Origin: Chryseobacterium gleum
Lineage (GTDB): Bacteria; Bacteroidota; Bacteroidia; Flavobacteriales_D; Sanyastnellaceae
DNA: 64,000 nucleotides
Assembly: GCA_945881835.1 (NCBI GenBank)
Contig: CAMCVP010000003.1
Coordinates: 62,001-126,000, forward strand
Direction of reading: 5' to 3'
Position numbers and translations under genes: made by a program. Positions 7,458 through 26,354 of this stretch are shown here, piece after piece. Each line of letters begins with the position of its first letter. The first letter of the stretch is position 1. The notes beneath the pieces were generated by a model that did no database searches, was not told where the DNA came from, and saw only the letters and a list, made by a program, of their open reading frames with translations.

Positions 7458-7568
7458 ATGCAAGATTTTACCCTTCAAGATTTAGTAGCTTTTATGGAGT
7501 CGGAAGAGATTATTCTTTCAGCATACGAACAGCTGCAACCGGTTACCAAAAGTTATATTTGGAACTAA
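7458..7568 (+). CDS. small protein, 36 aa (MQDFTLQDLVAFMESEEIILSAYEQLQPVTKSYIWN)
   Basis: Short ORF between the sigma factor gene and a strong terminator; not in the ORF track because of its length. Confidence 0.5.
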   Translation: MQDFTLQDLVAFMESEEIILSAYEQLQPVTKSYIWN

Positions 7569-7570
7569 TG

Positions 7571-7597
7571 AAAAAGCCACTCTCGAGTGGCTTTTTT
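7571..7597 (+). terminator. Rho-independent terminator
   Basis: AAAAAGCCACT-CTCG-AGTGGCTTTTTT, 11-bp perfect stem. Confidence 0.85.
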
Positions 7598-7615
7598 CTT
7601 GTTTACTTTTGCCGC

Positions 7616-8776
7616 ATGAAACTGCATCGCCTTTTATCCGTTTTGCTCATTAGCGCTGCTTTTCTGAATGCTTGTTCAAATGGAAATCAACCCACCGTTG
7701 ACTCTGTTATCTTTCAACCCAAATACGCCAAAGGTTTTCGCGTGGTGAAAATTGGAAATGATACCCTGATTCAGTTCCTGTCTCATTCTGATTCTCCTAC
7801 TGTTTCTCCTACTGTTTCTCATTCTGTTTCCGATTCTCCTACTGTTTCTCATTCTGTTTCTCTTTCCAAAATCAATCCGGAGCGAATCGCCCTTCTCAGC
7901 ACCACACATTCCTATTTCATCAATGCCCTAGATGGAATGAAGAACGTATGCGGAGTAACCTACGCAGACCGCATTCAGCTTGGAAATCTTCAATTACAAA
8001 TTGCAAGCGGAAAGACACAAAACCTCACCGAGAACGGCGATGTTAGTATGGAAGAATTACTCTTGCTGAATCCATCTGTTCTGTTCAGTGTTCCTTTCGA
8101 ATCAACACCCTATCAATCGAAACTACCGCAATGCACAGTAATTCCAACTACGGAATATCTAGAAGAACATCCGCTTGGAAAGGCAGAGTGGATCTATGTT
8201 TTTGGATATGTCCTTCGGAAGGATGTTTTGGCGAGGGAGTTGTTTTTGGAAATTGAAAGCGCATACATAGGTGCTGCGCAAGGTCATGCTGAAGGTGCTT
8301 CGCAAGGACCTTCCGTAGGACCTTCCGTAGGACCTTCGGTAGACCTTCCGTCAGGACCTTCTGTAAGACCTAGAATTTTCTTTGCTGCCAACAACGGCAG
8401 CGACTGGACCGTGGCGAATAACCAATCGTATTGGGCCATATTGCTGAAAGATGCGGGTGCGGAATATTTGGGGGCGACGAATGACAAAGGGAATTTGAAT
8501 TTCGACAAAGAGCGCATGTTGTTCGCGTTGAATGAAGCCGATGCGTATGGCGAGTTGGTGTATTTTCCGAATACATCCAACGTTTCACTTTCACAGTTGC
8601 ATCCGGAATTCACGCAGAGCGGTCCTTTTCAACATAAAAAATTATTTTTCTGCAATGCCGCAGACAATGGCTTTTTCGATAAAGCACTACTAGAGCCGCA
8701 CATACTACTTCAAGAATTGAAAATGGTATTGATCGATTCAACCTTTTCAGGAAACTACTTTCAACACACACATTAG
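7616..8776 (+). CDS. ABC transporter periplasmic substrate-binding lipoprotein (iron-siderophore/cobalamin BtuF-like)
   Basis: Lipobox FLNACSNG from the ATG at 7616. ERIALLSTTHSYFINALDG resembles the N-lobe start of the family. Two repeat arrays lie within the gene. Confidence 0.7.
   Translation: MKLHRLLSVLLISAAFLNACSNGNQPTVDSVIFQPKYAKGFRVVKIGNDTLIQFLSHSDSPTVSPTVSHSVSDSPTVSHSVSLSKINPERIALLSTTHSYFINALDGMKNVCGVTYADRIQLGNLQLQIASGKTQNLTENGDVSMEELLLLNPSVLFSVPFESTPYQSKLPQCTVIPTTEYLEEHPLGKAEWIYVFGYVLRKDVLARELFLEIESAYIGAAQGHAEGASQGPSVGPSVGPSVDLPSGPSVRPRIFFAANNGSDWTVANNQSYWAILLKDAGAEYLGATNDKGNLNFDKERMLFALNEADAYGELVYFPNTSNVSLSQLHPEFTQSGPFQHKKLFFCNAADNGFFDKALLEPHILLQELKMVLIDSTFSGNYFQHTH
7772..7861 (+). 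repeat. In-gene 12-bp tandem array, spacer about tttct plus 7-mers (CATTCTG, CCTACTG, GATTCTC)
   Basis: CAGTTCCTG tct CATTCTG attct CCTACTG tttct CCTACTG tttct CATTCTG tttcc GATTCT CCTACTG tttct CATTCTG tttct. Confidence 0.85.
8273..8371 (+). repeat. In-gene mini-hairpin array with spacers aaggt then cct
   Basis: GCTGCGC aaggt CATGCTG aaggt GCTTCGC aaggacct TCCGTAGGA cct TCCGTAGGA cct TCGGTAGA cct TCCGTCAGGA cct TCTGTAAGA cct. Every variable block is an inverted repeat. Confidence 0.9.
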
Positions 8777-8801: not shown

Positions 8802-10442
8802 ATGGACTCGAAAGAATTGGAATTCAACAAAAACGAAGACAAAATGCTTCAGCGCATTGCTGACCTTCAACGCAGATTGAAAAAGATCTACGAAGGTGGA
8901 GGGAAGAAGCGCATGGAGAAGGAGCACGAAAAAGGAAAGATGACCGCGCGTGAGCGAGTTGATTACCTTTTGGATAAAGATACTGAACGCATTGAAGTGG
9001 GTGCTTTCGCAGGCGATGGCATGTACGAAGAACATGGCGGTTGTCCGGCTGGTGGAGTAGTGGTGGTGATGGGATACGTTTCGAAGAAGCTATGCTTGGT
9101 TGTTGCGAACGACGCTACGGTGAAGGCGGGTGCCTGGTTTCCAATTACAGGAAAGAAGAACCTTCGTGCGCAAGAGATTGCCATGGAGAATCACATTCCC
9201 ATTATTTATTTGGTAGATAGCGCTGGGGTTTACTTGCCTATGCAAGATGAAATTTTCCCCGACAAAGAACACTTCGGACGAATTTTCAGAAACAATGCGC
9301 GCATGAGCAGCATGGGCATTCCGCAATACGCTGCCGTTATGGGAAGCTGCGTTGCGGGTGGAGCCTACTTGCCGATTATGAGCGACGAAGCGCTAATTGT
9401 AGACAAGACCGGAAGCATCTTCCTTGCAGGTTCATACTTGGTGAAAGCTGCTATTGGCGAGGAAGTCGACAACGAAACACTCGGCGGTGCAACAACGCAT
9501 TGCGAGATCAGTGGGGTGACAGACTACAAAGCGTTGAACGACAAAGACGCATTAGATACCTTGAAGAAATTATTGAGTCAGCAAGGAAAAACCAGCAAAG
9601 ACGCAGGTTTCGATCGCATTGCTCCTGTTATGCCGAAACGCAAGGTAGAAGATATGTTGGGAATTCTTCCAACCGATAGGACCACTTCTTACGAGGTGCG
9701 CGAGATGATTGAGTGCTTGGTAGATAACAGCGAATACACGGAATACAAGGCTGAATACGGAAAGAGCATCGTGTGTGCTTACGGTCGCATCAACGGTTGG
9801 TCAGTTGGAATTGTGGCCAATCAGCGCGAGGTGATTAAAAGCAAAAAAGACGGCATTCAGTTCGGTGGAGTAATTTATAGCGACAGTGCCGATAAGGCAG
9901 CGCGATTCATCATGAACTGCAATCAGAAAAACATTCCGTTGGTCTTCCTTCAAGACGTAACAGGTTTTATGGTTGGAAGTAAAAGTGAACACGGCGGAAT
10001 TATTAAAGACGGAGCGAAGTTGGTGAATGCACAAGCCAACAGTGTTGTGCCGAAGTTCACCATTATCATGGGTAACAGTTACGGCGCGGGCAATTACGCT
10101 ATGTGCGGAAAAGCATACGACCCTCGATTGATTGTAGGTTGGCCAACAGCTCAAGTTGCAGTAATGGGTGGTGCGCAAGCTGCGAAGGTGTTGCTTCAGA
10201 TTGAAGTGGCATCTTTGAAAGCAAAGGGTGAAACCATTACACCTGAGCGCGAAGCAGAAATGTTCAATCGCATTAAGTCGAAATACGACGAGCAAACCTC
10301 TCCGTATTATGCCGCTTCTCGCTTGTGGTTAGACGCTGTTATTGATCCGGTGGATACGCGCAAGTGGATAAGCCTAGGCTTGGAAGCCGCATCGAATGCA
10401 CCCGCTGAGCGCGCTTATTCGGTTGGAGTTCTTCAAACATGA
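8802..10442 (+). CDS. acyl-CoA carboxylase beta (carboxyltransferase) subunit
   Basis: Carboxyltransferase family: MTARERVDYLLD, YLVDSAGVYLPMQDEIFPDKEHFGRIFRN, GGAQAAKVL. Confidence 0.92.
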   Translation: MDSKELEFNKNEDKMLQRIADLQRRLKKIYEGGGKKRMEKEHEKGKMTARERVDYLLDKDTERIEVGAFAGDGMYEEHGGCPAGGVVVVMGYVSKKLCLVVANDATVKAGAWFPITGKKNLRAQEIAMENHIPIIYLVDSAGVYLPMQDEIFPDKEHFGRIFRNNARMSSMGIPQYAAVMGSCVAGGAYLPIMSDEALIVDKTGSIFLAGSYLVKAAIGEEVDNETLGGATTHCEISGVTDYKALNDKDALDTLKKLLSQQGKTSKDAGFDRIAPVMPKRKVEDMLGILPTDRTTSYEVREMIECLVDNSEYTEYKAEYGKSIVCAYGRINGWSVGIVANQREVIKSKKDGIQFGGVIYSDSADKAARFIMNCNQKNIPLVFLQDVTGFMVGSKSEHGGIIKDGAKLVNAQANSVVPKFTIIMGNSYGAGNYAMCGKAYDPRLIVGWPTAQVAVMGGAQAAKVLLQIEVASLKAKGETITPEREAEMFNRIKSKYDEQTSPYYAASRLWLDAVIDPVDTRKWISLGLEAASNAPAERAYSVGVLQT

Positions 10443-12049
10443 AAAGGAAGTTAGCTTATTTTTTTTCGGGTGAAGGGAAATGGCTTCGCCGGGTCTTGCT
10501 TGCAGCTGCCGTTGTGCGCCTCATTGCCGCAATTTTTTCGGAAGGGTATATCATGTCCGACGACCATTTCTTGGCCGTAGAACCGGTTTCATCATGGGTG
10601 AGCGGAGAGAACTATCACAACTGGTATCCGAATTCCTACAATGAAACCGATCATGCGCAGCCCTTCAGCTACGCCTATTATTTTTTGAATTTCGTAATCC
10701 TGAAGTTTTGTGCTGTAATTGGAATTCAGAATCCGTTTATCCAAGCCTTTGTTCTTCGAATAGTCCATGCCGCCCTAAGTTTATGGGGCGTTTACTTATT
10801 TGTGAAACTCGCTGAACGACTCATTTCATCGGTCACCTGGCGCATGCATGCCATTTGGTTATGGGTTTTCGGAGGAGTAGTCACGGTATTCAGCGTTCAT
10901 CAATTGGTTGAAACAGCCTGCATACCTTTTGTGTTGTTGGCTTATTTGTATGTATTGAAGTATTTCGAAAAGGATCGAGTAGGGGCAATCATCATTGCTG
11001 CCTTGGCATTTTCTGTTTCGGTTGGAATGCGATACCAATTGGTATTCTTTCCACTCACATTAGGATTCTATTTGTTGTGGAAACGAATGTGGAGTGGGGC
11101 AGTGCTCTTCGGAATTTTCTTCACTCTCGGTTTTGCATTGACCCAAATAGACAATCTCTTGTTCTGGCACAAACCCATTTACCAGCATTTACTCGATTAC
11201 CAGGCCTACAACGCCACCCACTTCGCCGATTACCCGAGCAATGTTTTTTCATACCTGGCTTTAATCACGTATTACATCTTTCCAGTTGTAACAATTGTTT
11301 TTCTATTATCCCTTCGCCGAAGGCATTCGTCCGCAGGACATTCGTCTCCGACATTCGTTGCTCCGCAACATTCTTCCAAAGGTGCTTCGCAAGTGGTGCC
11401 AATTCTAATTGGAACTATTGTTTTTATTGGATTTCATTTATTGTTTCCGAATCGACAAGAGAGATTCTTGCTGCCAGCAGTGCCATTCCTGCTGTTGTTA
11501 ATGATGAAAGCAATCTCCAAACGCTATTCGTGCTCTGCACCCTCGCACGAAGTGCCCTCGTCTGCAAGACCCTCGTCCGTTGGACCCTCGCGCGTAGCGC
11601 ACACAGCCATGCGCCTCTCCATCTACCTCTCCGCCATCTACACCGTCAGTTATTCCTTCTACATTCCTAAATCAAAATATCTCGAAGCATCGAAAGCACT
11701 ATATGAACGCGGCGACTTTCAAAATGTGGTAATTGATAATTGGAAAGGAGAAGAGTCTGTGTGGTTGCCGATGCATTATGTAGGGAAATTCACGCATCCG
11801 TTTTCAATGACTTCTATTAAGACAATGGATCAATTAAAGCAGCAGATTGCACATCAGCCATTCTTTGATTCCAAACGACTTCCAGCGCCTGTCCCCAATT
11901 ACCTTATTATTTGGGGTAAGGAGGAGGCTTATCCTCGGGCGAGAGCCTACGAGCAAGCGGGATTTGCAATTCGTCGTATCTCACCTGTGAATTCAGAGAA
12001 GGAATGCGGCTTTGTGTTGTATTCTCTTCGACTTGCAGCGGAGATTTAA
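10439..12049 (+). CDS. multi-TM glycosyltransferase (GPI mannosyltransferase / GT22-like)
   Basis: Many hydrophobic helices and HLLFPNRQERFLLPAVPFL, typical of GT22. Two repeat arrays encode hydrophilic loops. Confidence 0.75.
   Translation: MKRKLAYFFSGEGKWLRRVLLAAAVVRLIAAIFSEGYIMSDDHFLAVEPVSSWVSGENYHNWYPNSYNETDHAQPFSYAYYFLNFVILKFCAVIGIQNPFIQAFVLRIVHAALSLWGVYLFVKLAERLISSVTWRMHAIWLWVFGGVVTVFSVHQLVETACIPFVLLAYLYVLKYFEKDRVGAIIIAALAFSVSVGMRYQLVFFPLTLGFYLLWKRMWSGAVLFGIFFTLGFALTQIDNLLFWHKPIYQHLLDYQAYNATHFADYPSNVFSYLALITYYIFPVVTIVFLLSLRRRHSSAGHSSPTFVAPQHSSKGASQVVPILIGTIVFIGFHLLFPNRQERFLLPAVPFLLLLMMKAISKRYSCSAPSHEVPSSARPSSVGPSRVAHTAMRLSIYLSAIYTVSYSFYIPKSKYLEASKALYERGDFQNVVIDNWKGEESVWLPMHYVGKFTHPFSMTSIKTMDQLKQQIAHQPFFDSKRLPAPVPNYLIIWGKEEAYPRARAYEQAGFAIRRISPVNSEKECGFVLYSLRLAAEI
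11311..11393 (+). repeat. In-gene mini-hairpin array, spacer cattcg
   Basis: CCTTCGCCGAAGG cattcg TCCGCAGGA cattcg TCTCCGA cattcg TTGCTCCGCAA cattctt CCAAAGG tg CTTCGCAAG. Confidence 0.9.
11531..11599 (+). repeat. In-gene mini-hairpin array, 15-bp period, spacer ccctcg
   Basis: TGCTCTGCA ccctcg CACGAAGTG ccctcg TCTGCAAGA ccctcg TCCGTTGGA ccctcg CGCGTAGCG. Five different 3-bp stems, all perfect. Confidence 0.95.
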
Positions 12050-21238: not shown

Positions 21239-23983
21239 ATGTCAAAGAAAATAGTAGTTTTTGTCGCATTACTTTTTGTATTAAGCACCACAAGCGGCCA
21301 GGTTTTTCAGGATGTTACAGAGGCATACGGCATAGCTGTGCTCAACGCTTCCACTATGTATGGAACGGGTTCGAGTTGCTTCGATGTGAATGAAGACGGT
21401 TGGGACGACTTAACCGTTTGTATTGCCGGAGGAGCCGCACGATTATACATAAATAACCAAGGGGTTTTTCAGTTACATACGGCCTTTGAAAATATTTACG
21501 ATGCGAAGACATGCCTCTGGGGAGATTATGACGAAGACGGTGATAACGATTTATTCATCATCAAGCGTGACGGTCCTTCGCAGTTGTTTGTTCAAACCGA
21601 CAGTCTGGTATTTGTAAATCAAACTTCATCTTTGAACTTTCCTTTCAATGCTGCAAATAATTCTTTTGGTGCGGCATTAGGCGATTACAATAGAGATAGC
21701 TTTTTAGATATGTATGTTGCTAACTATAGCACAGCCGCTGTAGGAGGAATTAAGAGCACATTTTTAACCAACAATCAAAACGGAGGGTTTTCGAATAGTC
21801 CGCATGGCTACTACCGCAATCACTTTCAACCAACGTTTATTGATTTATCAAGAGATCGTTATCAAGACATATTTATAATAAACGACTTTCGAACCGGATC
21901 TGAATTATATACCCAAGATACTCAAGGAGTGTTAACCGACCAAACACCAAATGGCTCATTTGGATTGAGCGGAGCAATTTATTTAGACGCGATGTCAAAC
22001 TCGTGGTGTGATTATGACAACGACGCCGATTTGGATATGTACACCACAAATACCCCCACTCACGGGAATTTTTTATTTCAGAATAACGGAGCGAATAGTT
22101 TTTCAAACGTGGCCCCCGCCGCAGGTGCAGCGTTGTACAAGTGGTCGTGGAGTGCCTTGTGGTTCGATATAGAAAATGATGGTTGGAACGATTTAATTAT
22201 CGATGAACGCCACGTAAACATTCTGTTTATTAACCAATTTGGAAATCATGTTTTAAGAAACAACAACGGTATGTTCACGCTTGATAATACTACCGGTATT
22301 TCAGGACTGCCATACGGATATTTCACCTCTTCAAAAGGCGACTTCAACAATGATGGCCTTTACGATTTATACTTGGGAGCAGAGACAGGGCAGCAATCGC
22401 GCGTGTTTCAGAACAATACAGTGACTTCCAATAACTATGTGAAATGTAGGTTGAACGGAAGGTTAAGTAACAGAAATGGAGTAGGTACTTACATTGATTA
22501 CTATTTGAATGGATCGCATCGCGTTCACTACACCCAATTGGGTGAAAACTACCTTTGTCAAAATTCTCAGAACGTAATTTTTGGAATTGGAAATGCTGAA
22601 CAAATTGACTCTTTGAAATTAAGTTGGATCAGCGGAGTGGTGGATACCTACTATAATATTCCTGCCAATACAACGCATGTTTTTGTTGAAGGAGAAACAA
22701 TGCCGCAGATTCAAGCGTCGAAAGAATTTCTTTGTCCTACTGGCACAGATAACTTGGAACTGAGTATTCCTTATTGGCCCACACATGTGTGGGGGAATGG
22801 ATCAACTGCGGAAAGCATTACGGTTACAGCGCCCGGTACATACACAGTTACCGTTGGTACCGGATTCGGACATACCATTCAATTGAGCTATACGGTTGAA
22901 ATGGCCAATGCCGATGCCTTTGAAATTATGCGCACTCCTGTTTTGTGCGCAGGGGATAGCACAGGAACCATTGAAGTCGTGAACCTGAACACCAGTGAAA
23001 TTGTGTTTCAGCAAAGTGCGTTGCCAGCAGGCAATGTGGTATTTCCTTTGACCATTATCGAAGGATGCGTTATTCAGCAAGAAGTGTGGATCGATGAACC
23101 ATTACCATTTGTACTGATGGTCGATTCAATAAAGCCTGCTTGTTTTGAATTGAATAATGGATCTGCTGTTGTTCACGCTATTGATGGAACTGCTCCATAT
23201 ACAGGGTTCAATGAATTCGGAGCTTTAGCTTTGACAGATCTTTCAGCGGGAGTTTATGCTGACACCATTTTCGACTCTAACGGATGTCCTTCCACATATT
23301 CATTCGCCATCGCTGAAATTCCGCAGGCTATAATAGAAGTGACTTCTCCCAATTGGGTATGTGCAGGTGGGTGGGTAATTTTTGACGCAACTGTTTCTGG
23401 CATTGGAGACAATTATTTTTGGGATGTAATTGGGCCAGGGACAATTCTTGGTGCAGGCACTCAATCTTTCTCAGTCGTTGATTCACTCCTTTGCGTAACA
23501 AGCATGGATGTTACAATACAAGAAATTCAATCGCCTGCAATTACTGCAAATATTTTTTCAGAAAGTGCGTCGGGCTTAGGAAGTATCAATCTCGATGTTG
23601 TTGGAAATTATCCTCCGTATACCGCCAATTGGCAATCGGGATTTGTCGGATTGAATTACGCAGAATTGGCGCAAGGAAATTACGATGTCACGATTTCAGA
23701 TTCTCTCGGATGTACTGTGGATACTATGTTCACGGTCTTATTCGATTTCGTTGAGGAAGCAATTTTTACGAATGAATTTGTTGTCGATTGGAAGACGGGT
23801 GAATTGACATATACCGGAACCGAACGTTTATTCGGTATTGAAGTGTATAACGATTTAGGGCAACTCATTTGCACAAAGGCCACACTCGGAGCGAATGAGG
23901 TGATGCCGTTGAATGTGTCGGCACAGACTATTTACATTTCCTCTTCAAAAGGAAATTCAAGATCGAAAATTTTAATTCGATAG
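21239..23983 (+). CDS. FG-GAP/VCBS repeat and ASPIC/UnbV (CRTAC1-like) secreted protein
   Basis: Repeated DVNEDGWDDL / DYDEDGDNDLFI / DFNNDGLYDLYLG; RNGVGTYIDYYLNG...NVIFGIGNAEQIDSLKLSW; T9SS-like tail. Confidence 0.85.
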   Translation: MSKKIVVFVALLFVLSTTSGQVFQDVTEAYGIAVLNASTMYGTGSSCFDVNEDGWDDLTVCIAGGAARLYINNQGVFQLHTAFENIYDAKTCLWGDYDEDGDNDLFIIKRDGPSQLFVQTDSLVFVNQTSSLNFPFNAANNSFGAALGDYNRDSFLDMYVANYSTAAVGGIKSTFLTNNQNGGFSNSPHGYYRNHFQPTFIDLSRDRYQDIFIINDFRTGSELYTQDTQGVLTDQTPNGSFGLSGAIYLDAMSNSWCDYDNDADLDMYTTNTPTHGNFLFQNNGANSFSNVAPAAGAALYKWSWSALWFDIENDGWNDLIIDERHVNILFINQFGNHVLRNNNGMFTLDNTTGISGLPYGYFTSSKGDFNNDGLYDLYLGAETGQQSRVFQNNTVTSNNYVKCRLNGRLSNRNGVGTYIDYYLNGSHRVHYTQLGENYLCQNSQNVIFGIGNAEQIDSLKLSWISGVVDTYYNIPANTTHVFVEGETMPQIQASKEFLCPTGTDNLELSIPYWPTHVWGNGSTAESITVTAPGTYTVTVGTGFGHTIQLSYTVEMANADAFEIMRTPVLCAGDSTGTIEVVNLNTSEIVFQQSALPAGNVVFPLTIIEGCVIQQEVWIDEPLPFVLMVDSIKPACFELNNGSAVVHAIDGTAPYTGFNEFGALALTDLSAGVYADTIFDSNGCPSTYSFAIAEIPQAIIEVTSPNWVCAGGWVIFDATVSGIGDNYFWDVIGPGTILGAGTQSFSVVDSLLCVTSMDVTIQEIQSPAITANIFSESASGLGSINLDVVGNYPPYTANWQSGFVGLNYAELAQGNYDVTISDSLGCTVDTMFTVLFDFVEEAIFTNEFVVDWKTGELTYTGTERLFGIEVYNDLGQLICTKATLGANEVMPLNVSAQTIYISSSKGNSRSKILIR

Positions 23984-23987
23984 TATC

Positions 23988-24060
23988 GCGAAGCATCATC
24001 CTTCGAAGAAGGTCATCCCCGAAGTGGTCATCACAACGTGTTGTGTCATCCACGAAGTGG
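23988..24060. repeat. Mini-hairpin array between convergent genes, spacer tcat
   Basis: GCGAAGC atcat CCTTCGAAGAAGG tcat CCCCGAAGTGG tcat CACAACGTGTTGTG tcat CCACGAAGTGG. Confidence 0.9.
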
Positions 24061-24573
24061 TTGAGTTAAGTGGAAGAGCGCAATTCCCCCGCTGACTGCC
24101 ACATTCAAGCTGTGCTTGGTGCCGTGTTGTTCTATTTCAAGCGAGCCGGTAACGAGCTTGAGCACTTCCTCATCTACACCATTCACTTCATTGCCCAGAA
24201 CCAAAGCAATGGGCTTCTGCGAGTGAAAGGTGTGAAGAGCAACACTGTTATGCGTCTGCTCCAACGCCCACACTTCGTGTGAACCCTGTATCTCTAAAAC
24301 AGCCTCTTCAGTGTTGCTGAAATGCTTCCAGCTAACCGATTCCGTTGAACCCAACGCGGTCTTCAAGATCTCGCGGTGTGGAGGAATCGGAGTAATTCCG
24401 CAACAGTAAATCGCTTCAATGCGAAACGCATCGGCACTGCGGAATAGACTTCCGACATTCAACGCACTGCGGAAATTATCTAGGATTAAGACAATCGGAA
24501 ATTTTTCAGCGTGCTGAAATTCTTCAGCGTTCAAACGCTGAAGTTCATCCATACTTTTCTTCTCGAAACTCAT
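24046..24573 (-). CDS. TrmH/SpoU-family RNA methyltransferase
   Basis: ILDNFRSALNVGSLFRSADAF, IALVLGNEVNGV, LNVAVSGGIALF. Confidence 0.92.
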   Translation of the reverse strand: MSFEKKSMDELQRLNAEEFQHAEKFPIVLILDNFRSALNVGSLFRSADAFRIEAIYCCGITPIPPHREILKTALGSTESVSWKHFSNTEEAVLEIQGSHEVWALEQTHNSVALHTFHSQKPIALVLGNEVNGVDEEVLKLVTGSLEIEQHGTKHSLNVAVSGGIALFHLTQPLRG

Positions 24574-26354
24574 TCAACCGTAATGTAAAATGGAAGACGC
24601 GTCTGAATCTTTCCGCCGTTACTCAATTGACGAATGTCTTGATAATTCTTGAATCTGCTGCCGAGTAAACGCGATAGAATCGCGTCTTCCGATTTTCCAG
24701 AAATGTTATCGAAAAACTCTTCCAACGGATCAAGCATTTCAGGTAATTCAAGAATAGAATTCGAACCAACGCCAGCCTTCGCTGCAGCATAAGCAACAGC
24801 CTCGCGCAAGCCACCCATCTCGTCTACAAGCCCAATGGTTAAAGCATCTTCACCACTCCAAACACGGCCTTGACCAATGCTATCCACATAACTCTGAGAG
24901 ATGTTTCTTCCCAACGCAACCTTGCTTGTGAAGTCGTTGTAAATGTTGCTCACCATGACTTGCATAGCGCGCTTCTGAACGGTGTCCAATGGAGAAGTTA
25001 ACGTCATCATGTTCGCATGCTCATGCGTCTTGTAAGCATCGAAGGTGATGCCCAACTTATGATCTAGGAAGTTCTGTAGGTTCGGAATAATTCCAAACAC
25101 ACCAATAGATCCGGTAATGGTATTCGGCTGCGCGAAGATGCGGTCTGCTCCGCAAGCAATGTAATATCCGCCAGAGGCCGCGTAATCGCCCATGCTCACC
25201 ACAAACACCTTTCCGCTTTGCTTAATCAATTCCGTTTCCCTCCATATCACATCACTCGCTAATGCACTTCCTCCGGGAGAGTTCACACGCAGCACCACCG
25301 CCTTGATTCCTTCATCCAAACGCGCATCGCACAAGGCTTTCGCTATACGATCACTTCCAATGGTTTCATCGTCGCCCTTTCCACTTTCAATTCCACCAAT
25401 GGCATACACCACTGCCACTTGAGCAAGATCAGATGCTTTGTCTTCCAACTTCACAACATCTAAATAGCGCGAATAAGAAATGATTTCGTCTTCAATTTTT
25501 TTGTCGTTTTCCAATTTTCCTTTGTCTTTCAAACGAGCCGAAATCTTCGCTGCAATCTCATCTGGATAAAGCAATCCGTCTATCAACTTCGATTGAAGCA
25601 GCGTGTTGTTGTTAATGAATCGAAGGGAAGTGGCAGAAGCATTAAGTTCCTCTACAGAAACGCCGCGTTGAGCAGAAATCTTTTCGCACATGACCTTCCA
25701 AATATCATCAATGAACGTTGCCATTTGCAAACGGTTTTCATCTGACATGTGGTCGTAAATGAAAGGCTCTACGGCGCTTTTGAATTTGTTGTTCGGACCG
25801 CGGATCACCTGCGCTTCTATTTCCAAATTGTCTAACAACTTTTTATAGAACATCACTTCCGCGTTAAGTCCGTGCCAATCGAAAGTTCCTGTTGGATACA
25901 TGTACACTTCATTCGCAGCGCTCGCCAAGAAATAGCCCGCTTGCGAATAGCCTTCGCTGTAGGCGATTACCCATTTACCCGAAGACTTGAAGTCAAGAAT
26001 CGCGTTGTGAATTTCCAACAACATAGCAGGCGCGGCTTCAATTGCACCAATGTTCAAGTAAACGCCTTCAATGCGCTCATCGGTTTTCGCAAAGCGGAGC
26101 ACACGCTCTAATTCGCGCAAAGCAATGCGATTTTCAGCACCATCCAAGTTGAACGAAGGTGTGTCGAGTCCTCTTTCCGTAAATGAATTTTCGAGTGTTA
26201 TTTTCAGGATAGATTCATTCTCCATGGAGACATCTTCCCCAGAAGAAAAGGCTGCAACAATAGCAGCAATTATTCCGATGGTGATTAATGTTCCGATGAT
26301 GGAAGCAATGAAATTTCCCACGAGCGTGGCCCAAACGGTTTTCCAAAAAGTCAT
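24570..26354 (-). CDS. sppA: signal peptide peptidase SppA, 67K type
   Basis: VVLRVNSPGGSALASDVIWRE; GDYAASGGYYIACGADRIFAQPNTITGSIGVFG. Confidence 0.93.
   Translation of the reverse strand: MTFWKTVWATLVGNFIASIIGTLITIGIIAAIVAAFSSGEDVSMENESILKITLENSFTERGLDTPSFNLDGAENRIALRELERVLRFAKTDERIEGVYLNIGAIEAAPAMLLEIHNAILDFKSSGKWVIAYSEGYSQAGYFLASAANEVYMYPTGTFDWHGLNAEVMFYKKLLDNLEIEAQVIRGPNNKFKSAVEPFIYDHMSDENRLQMATFIDDIWKVMCEKISAQRGVSVEELNASATSLRFINNNTLLQSKLIDGLLYPDEIAAKISARLKDKGKLENDKKIEDEIISYSRYLDVVKLEDKASDLAQVAVVYAIGGIESGKGDDETIGSDRIAKALCDARLDEGIKAVVLRVNSPGGSALASDVIWRETELIKQSGKVFVVSMGDYAASGGYYIACGADRIFAQPNTITGSIGVFGIIPNLQNFLDHKLGITFDAYKTHEHANMMTLTSPLDTVQKRAMQVMVSNIYNDFTSKVALGRNISQSYVDSIGQGRVWSGEDALTIGLVDEMGGLREAVAYAAAKAGVGSNSILELPEMLDPLEEFFDNISGKSEDAILSRLLGSRFKNYQDIRQLSNGGKIQTRLPFYITVE

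Follow-up and report, generated by a model that had tools for sequence, protein, structure and literature searches.

The hairpin array behind the methyltransferase gene

In the window, by which we mean the whole 64,000-nucleotide stretch analysed, an array of five small hairpins spaced by TCAT lies between a gene for a surface protein and a convergent gene for an RNA methyltransferase, at positions 23987-24060 (Table 1). Read directly, the plus strand continues after the TAG at 23981-23983 as TAT CGCGAAGCA TCAT CCTTCGAAGAAGG TCAT CCCCGAAGTGG TCAT CACAACGTGTTGTG TCAT CCACGAAGTGG TT. This reading agrees with the first-pass annotation, which had placed five hairpins with TCAT spacers here, except in the composition of the first unit. 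A hairpin is present there, but rather than the GC.GAA.GC described earlier it is CGC.GAA.GCG, decayed in the window by a change of its last G to A; the sister species G010 (G-numbers denote genomes of the genus, and L-numbers sequence stretches) has the intact form, CGCGAAGCG TCAT.

Table 1. Genes and array elements at the methyltransferase site, in window coordinates
Feature	Position	Strand	Remarks
Convergent FG-GAP/UnbV-ASPIC surface protein gene	21239-23983	+	Stop 3 bp before array
Unit 1, CGC.GAA.GC(A)	23987-23995	+	Decayed CGCGAAGCG; T before
TCAT linker	23996-23999	+	Between units 1 and 2
Unit 2, CCTTC.GAA.GAAGG	24000-24012	+	
TCAT linker	24013-24016	+	Between units 2 and 3
Unit 3, CCCC.GAA.GTGG	24017-24027	+	One mismatch; CCAC.GGA.GTGG in G010
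TCAT linker	24028-24031	+	Between units 3 and 4
Unit 4, CACAAC.GT.GTTGTG	24032-24045	+	Commonest unit of the family
TCAT linker	24046-24049	+	Complement is the TGA of the minus-strand gene
Unit 5, CCAC.GAA.GTGG	24050-24060	+	3'-most, then T; kept in four species; minus strand encodes PLRG
SpoU/TrmH-type RNA methyltransferase gene	24046-24573	-	3' end within array
Signal peptide peptidase SppA gene	24570-26354	-	Upstream of methyltransferase gene, overlaps its start

The window holds no TCAT-hairpin-TCA unit with a perfect stem of at least 4 bp other than the second and fourth units described here. Three perfect fixed-linker hairpins in a row did not occur in 20 local shuffles of the window, and the only Rfam matches above the gathering score were five tRNAs.

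The array also reaches into the coding sequence. The methyltransferase reading frame ends ...HLTQPLRG*, with PLRG encoded by CCACTTCGTGG and the TGA supplied by the adjoining TCAT, so that the gene owes both its 3' end and its stop codon to the array, as had been proposed from the sequence. Comparison of methyltransferase C-termini gives the same picture: the tail HLT(Q/L)PLRG* is common to the four array carriers (G000, G006, G010 and G011), and the three array-free relatives end differently (HLTQS* in G012, HLTQPNIHSV* in G008 and HLSTCHHFKS* in G005). The arrays alter gene ends, the methyltransferase tail varying with the presence or absence of the array. At the same site the array-free G012 reads ATGAT^TGAGTTAA, against GTGG^TTGAGTTAA in the array species; this agrees with the general boundary rule, by which an array has a T directly ahead of its first hairpin and another directly behind its last.

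Hairpin families across the genus

TCAT hairpin triplets number 72+92 in the whole genome, where the same pattern reversed gives 5+0. Genome-wide, TCATC-NN-CGAAG-NN-G matches at 21 places, in most of which the NN pairs are complementary. TCAT hairpin triplets occur in number in eight of the nine genomes of the genus, G005 being without them. Those relatives that have named records are MAGs of Flavobacteriales, and their sample names suggest that they come from lakes. Among the 199 genomes of the order that were searched, the arrays are limited to this genus; none was found in the roughly 195 others, where the matches listed were coding-like or simple repeats. Scans of viral contigs yielded no arrays, and plasmids gave only weak chance matches. 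We found no description of arrays of fixed-linker mini-hairpins in the literature searched.

We collected 62 nonredundant arrays with 462 units and 136 distinct hairpins. Stems are 3-6 bp and loops 2-3 nt, the latter being the only loop sizes that detection permitted; spacing by TCAT alone yields equal unit lengths. In a set of 433 units chosen by TCAT spacing alone, blind to pairing, 370 are perfect hairpins, where 94 are expected with re-dealt arms, and a further 32 have one mismatch. Among 49 distinct 11-nt units, 95.9% of cells are paired and 42 double changes are seen, with a covariation score of 0.611 against 0.172 for shuffled units (0/500) and at most 0.10 when the partners are slid. 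C-G accounts for almost every end pair and for the closing pair of 412 among the 462 units; the inner pairs vary freely. A T follows the last hairpin at 70 of 73 3' ends, and a T also precedes the first hairpin at 5' ends. A coding repeat and chance were both considered as the origin of the arrays and rejected on the reversed-pattern, re-dealt-arm and shuffle controls. What is conserved is the four-letter linker, the type of loop and the base pairing, with stem letters nearly free. Repeat families are usually defined by a consensus sequence, and with stem letters so free, sequence-based repeat finders would tend to overlook these arrays.

TCAT is one linker of several. A search blind to the linker in 438 kb of the source genome returned 62 arrays with three or more perfect hairpins each. 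No such array came up in three shuffles, nor in 400 kb taken from ten further genera of the family. The 62 arrays fall into families with their own linker and stem ends, namely TCAT (C..G), TTGA (T..A), TCT (T..A) and ATTC (G..C), alongside a few CCTC and CCT linkers. Fifty-three of the 62 are intergenic, seven genic and two at stretch edges, in stretches mostly picked around TCAT arrays, whose array density is not the genome average. A CTTA-linked array of alternating hairpins, apparently of another linker type, was seen in the sister species G011 (L215:15865-15939).

Arrays that contain units in both orientations have a constant polarity. All 23 of them, from three linker families, pass from reverse units to forward units (ATGA..TCAT in 11, TCAA..TTGA in 7 and AGA..TCT in 5), and the opposite order was not seen. 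On the outward strand, loops are predominantly GNA rather than TNC (45:3 for TCT, 44:7 for TTGA and 130:36 for TCAT). DNA mini-hairpins of extraordinary stability result when a GNA loop is combined with two or more G-C pairs, and CGCGAAGCG has itself been used as such a mini-hairpin (PMC4686876). From the outward-strand preference we infer that the relevant form is single-stranded DNA, and the arrays offer a natural test of how GNA-loop DNA mini-hairpins behave in cells. Four two-way TCAT arrays (L100:18493-18682, L106:12963-13215, L112:14248-14554 and L114:3898-4058) have a common core, CGCTCCGCGAAGCGG, at the turning point, in either orientation.

Turnover at array sites and the transcript-end question

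Array sites differ between species in several ways. At one site the units number 1, 2, 2, 4, 5, 6 and 7 across seven species, a series that may reflect either growth or loss of units. The intergenic site L110:12840-12941, whose counterparts in relatives include stretches L175, L177, L178 and L181, carries TCAT arrays in G000, G007, G008 and G009, and ATTC arrays in G006, G010, G011 and G012. Elsewhere the outer sequence is constant between species and the units vary in number and kind. Changes of this sort could in principle arise passively, through slippage and recombination between TCAT linkers, with template-switching (quasi-palindrome correction) keeping the stems perfect and with no dedicated enzyme or function. 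Plain local amplification is seen at one site, where eight forward units in G000 are matched by many more in a sister species, CCGGAACGG alternating with CCACGCAGTGG, and mismatches on one side of a stem are found between sister species (CCCC..GTGG in G000 and CACAGC..GTTGTG in G010). However, a passive repeat leaves the fixed linker and the outward-strand GNA loops unexplained, as well as the constant divergence of two-way arrays and the recurrence of hairpin types at unrelated sites, and we consider this account somewhat unlikely. Alternatively, the arrays might resemble enteric BIMEs in serving as a platform to which a nucleoid protein, gyrase or a recombination protein binds: array sites are retained across species, and a fixed linker with variable, paired stems would suit a structure-reading protein. 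Since sites are also gained and lost, linker families have been swapped at L110:12840-12941, and no candidate protein was found, we regard such a platform as very unlikely.

The first-pass annotation had noted the absence of a U-tract terminator between the convergent genes, and indeed none is present at 23700-24300 on either strand. It had further suggested that the array serves as a bidirectional transcript end. An array that ends transcription, or shields 3' ends, between convergent genes in both directions would be compatible with that absence and with the intrinsic terminators found in array-free relatives at array sites (G012 at the methyltransferase site and G005 at another). Between tandem genes, too, arrays lie a median of 11.5 bp past the stop codon and 57 bp ahead of the next start (p 0.06), although this closeness to stop codons may reflect promoter avoidance only. 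In the 438 kb, with genes called by a simple script, arrays occupy 18 spaces between tandem genes, 9 between convergent genes and 7 between divergent genes, the last out of 50 divergent gene pairs. U-tract terminators are equally common with and without arrays, and neither a replacement of terminators by arrays nor a filling of convergent spacers reached a significant difference. The RNA folding of the methyltransferase-site array is ordinary relative to shuffled sequence (z -0.24 and -1.49), and the favoured loops are those that suit the chemistry of DNA mini-hairpins. Fold energy, whether of RNA or DNA, was dropped as support, its z-scores being ordinary under energy models that carry no GNA bonus. 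Like intrinsic terminators, the arrays are hairpins behind stop codons; unlike them, they lack a U-tract, have short stems and also lie between divergent genes. We consider a dedicated transcript-end role unlikely, and the data do not support it as the general function of the arrays.

A related proposal, that coding constraint shortens the stems inside genes, turned out to be weak. Mean stem length is 4.0 bp in intergenic arrays (283 units) and 3.6 bp in genic ones (18 units). Those arrays that lie inside genes of the window are, besides, of linker families other than TCAT.

Likeness to REP elements and the nearby Y1 genes

The CGTC/GTAG REPs are small palindromic repeats whose base carries a tetranucleotide that does not pair; they are present in high copy, mainly intergenic, sometimes clustered and in some cases genic, and the CGTC REPs occur in Bacteroidetes without a known transposase (Di Nocera 2013, PMC3733652). 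The arrays resemble them as short palindromes with a tetranucleotide, in high copy and mainly intergenic (53 of 62 arrays). They differ in stem (3-6 bp, compared with 8-9 bp in CGTC REPs) and loop (2-3 nt, compared with 4-5 nt). REP families have a recognisable stem consensus, whereas the arrays have 136 hairpin types with both-sided changes of inner pairs. The arrays are also long, head-to-tail and built on several coexisting linkers, whereas head-to-tail arrangement is negligible in CGTC REPs. Nor do they bear the GTAG/CGTC tag: the TCAT linker follows the last G of the stem, and CGTC is seen only where the stem ends in CG. We rejected the idea that two-way arrays correspond to the commonest type of REP dimer, because REP dimers mostly have their tags outside and the arrays have linker ends inside in 23 of 23 cases. 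Small intergenic hairpins of organelles are likewise considered mobile; they belong to organelle DNA and are not known to form fixed-linker tandem arrays. In REPIN/BIME systems with TnpA_REP (RAYT), a tetranucleotide and hairpin are read as single-stranded DNA (PMC8266576), and some of the arrays likewise have Y1 genes nearby. By analogy, the arrays appear to work most like REP elements, yet they miss several features of REP membership.

The Y1 proteins near the arrays are unlike RAYT proteins (YIxxNP) and resemble subclass 1.2 (YIQNQKxHH). Y1 (PF01797) genes were found in G000 (two), G006, G007 and G011 (two), and also in several genera without arrays; G010, a genome 96% complete with 51 TCAT triplets, gave no match. 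The proteins of the genus carry DHVH, WQ and YIQNQKEHH or YIQNQKNHH and are encoded in one or two copies per genome, and those neighbouring arrays agree with TnpA_Y1 subclass 1.2 in DH[IV]H, WQ, YxxxQxxHH and low copy number. No REP partner has been reported for this subclass (PMC6006769).

Two types of Y1 locus lie close to arrays. At type A loci, two unrelated positions in two species, a TTGA array lies about 60-230 bp upstream in the same orientation (2/2), and at the type B locus ATTC arrays are present in two of four species (G000 and G011); the per-gene array backgrounds are 2.4% and 1.1%. TTGA or ATTC arrays just upstream of subclass 1.2-type Y1 genes were observed at L118:1329-1385, L119:2128-2200, L122:1175-1227 and L123:2038-2105. 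No Y1 gene adjoins a TCAT array, and none of 13 Y1 loci in other genera carries an array. The link, noticed after the fact, concerns TTGA and ATTC arrays and is absent for TCAT; within those bounds it is suggestive. The arrays offer a candidate substrate for subclass 1.2 Y1 proteins. The type A gene in G000 is flanked on both sides by repeated hairpin sequences resembling insertion-sequence ends, and from this arrangement it is possibly an insertion sequence within an array hot spot.

Together, these observations suggest that the arrays are an undescribed sort of repeated DNA that probably spreads itself; a purpose-built transcription stop is disfavoured. We give roughly even chances to the reading that the methyltransferase-site array is one of a set of genus-specific, tandem, REP-like mini-hairpin repeats of single-stranded DNA, possibly handled by Y1 (HUH) proteins. 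The units are short perfect palindromes with a 3-6 bp stem and a 2-3 nt loop, each joined to the next by the fixed linker. Single-stranded DNA would be the form recognised and copied, and an activity of HUH (Y1) type, or a similar one, would recognise linker plus hairpin. Units would be added or exchanged at TT positions in spacer DNA, in a REP-like spread, and the methyltransferase stop codon, with any effect on transcript ends, would be a by-product of where the repeat landed. A bolder form of this proposal, possible though doubtful, is a categorically new system of repeats that passes on mainly its shape. Several coexisting single-stranded DNA mini-hairpin families, all distinguished by a fixed linker and an end pair of their own, would then be extended outward from a core by an enzyme reading linker plus hairpin, perhaps a subclass 1.2 Y1 protein.

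Other repeats were seen within and beside genes. In the window, three AGG-linked hairpins (8272-8304) lie inside an open reading frame (7559-8776) that also codes for SPTVS and GPSV repeats. A second frame (10439-12049; 536 aa, with many hydrophobic stretches) contains an ATTC-linked array (11329-11369) and a CCTC-linked array (11545-11600), whose in-frame translations are stretches of the types HSSAG.. and PSxxx... Two array flanks, L115:3062-3117 and L110:12548-12608, are stretches of about 50 bp with matches at many places in the genomes of the genus.
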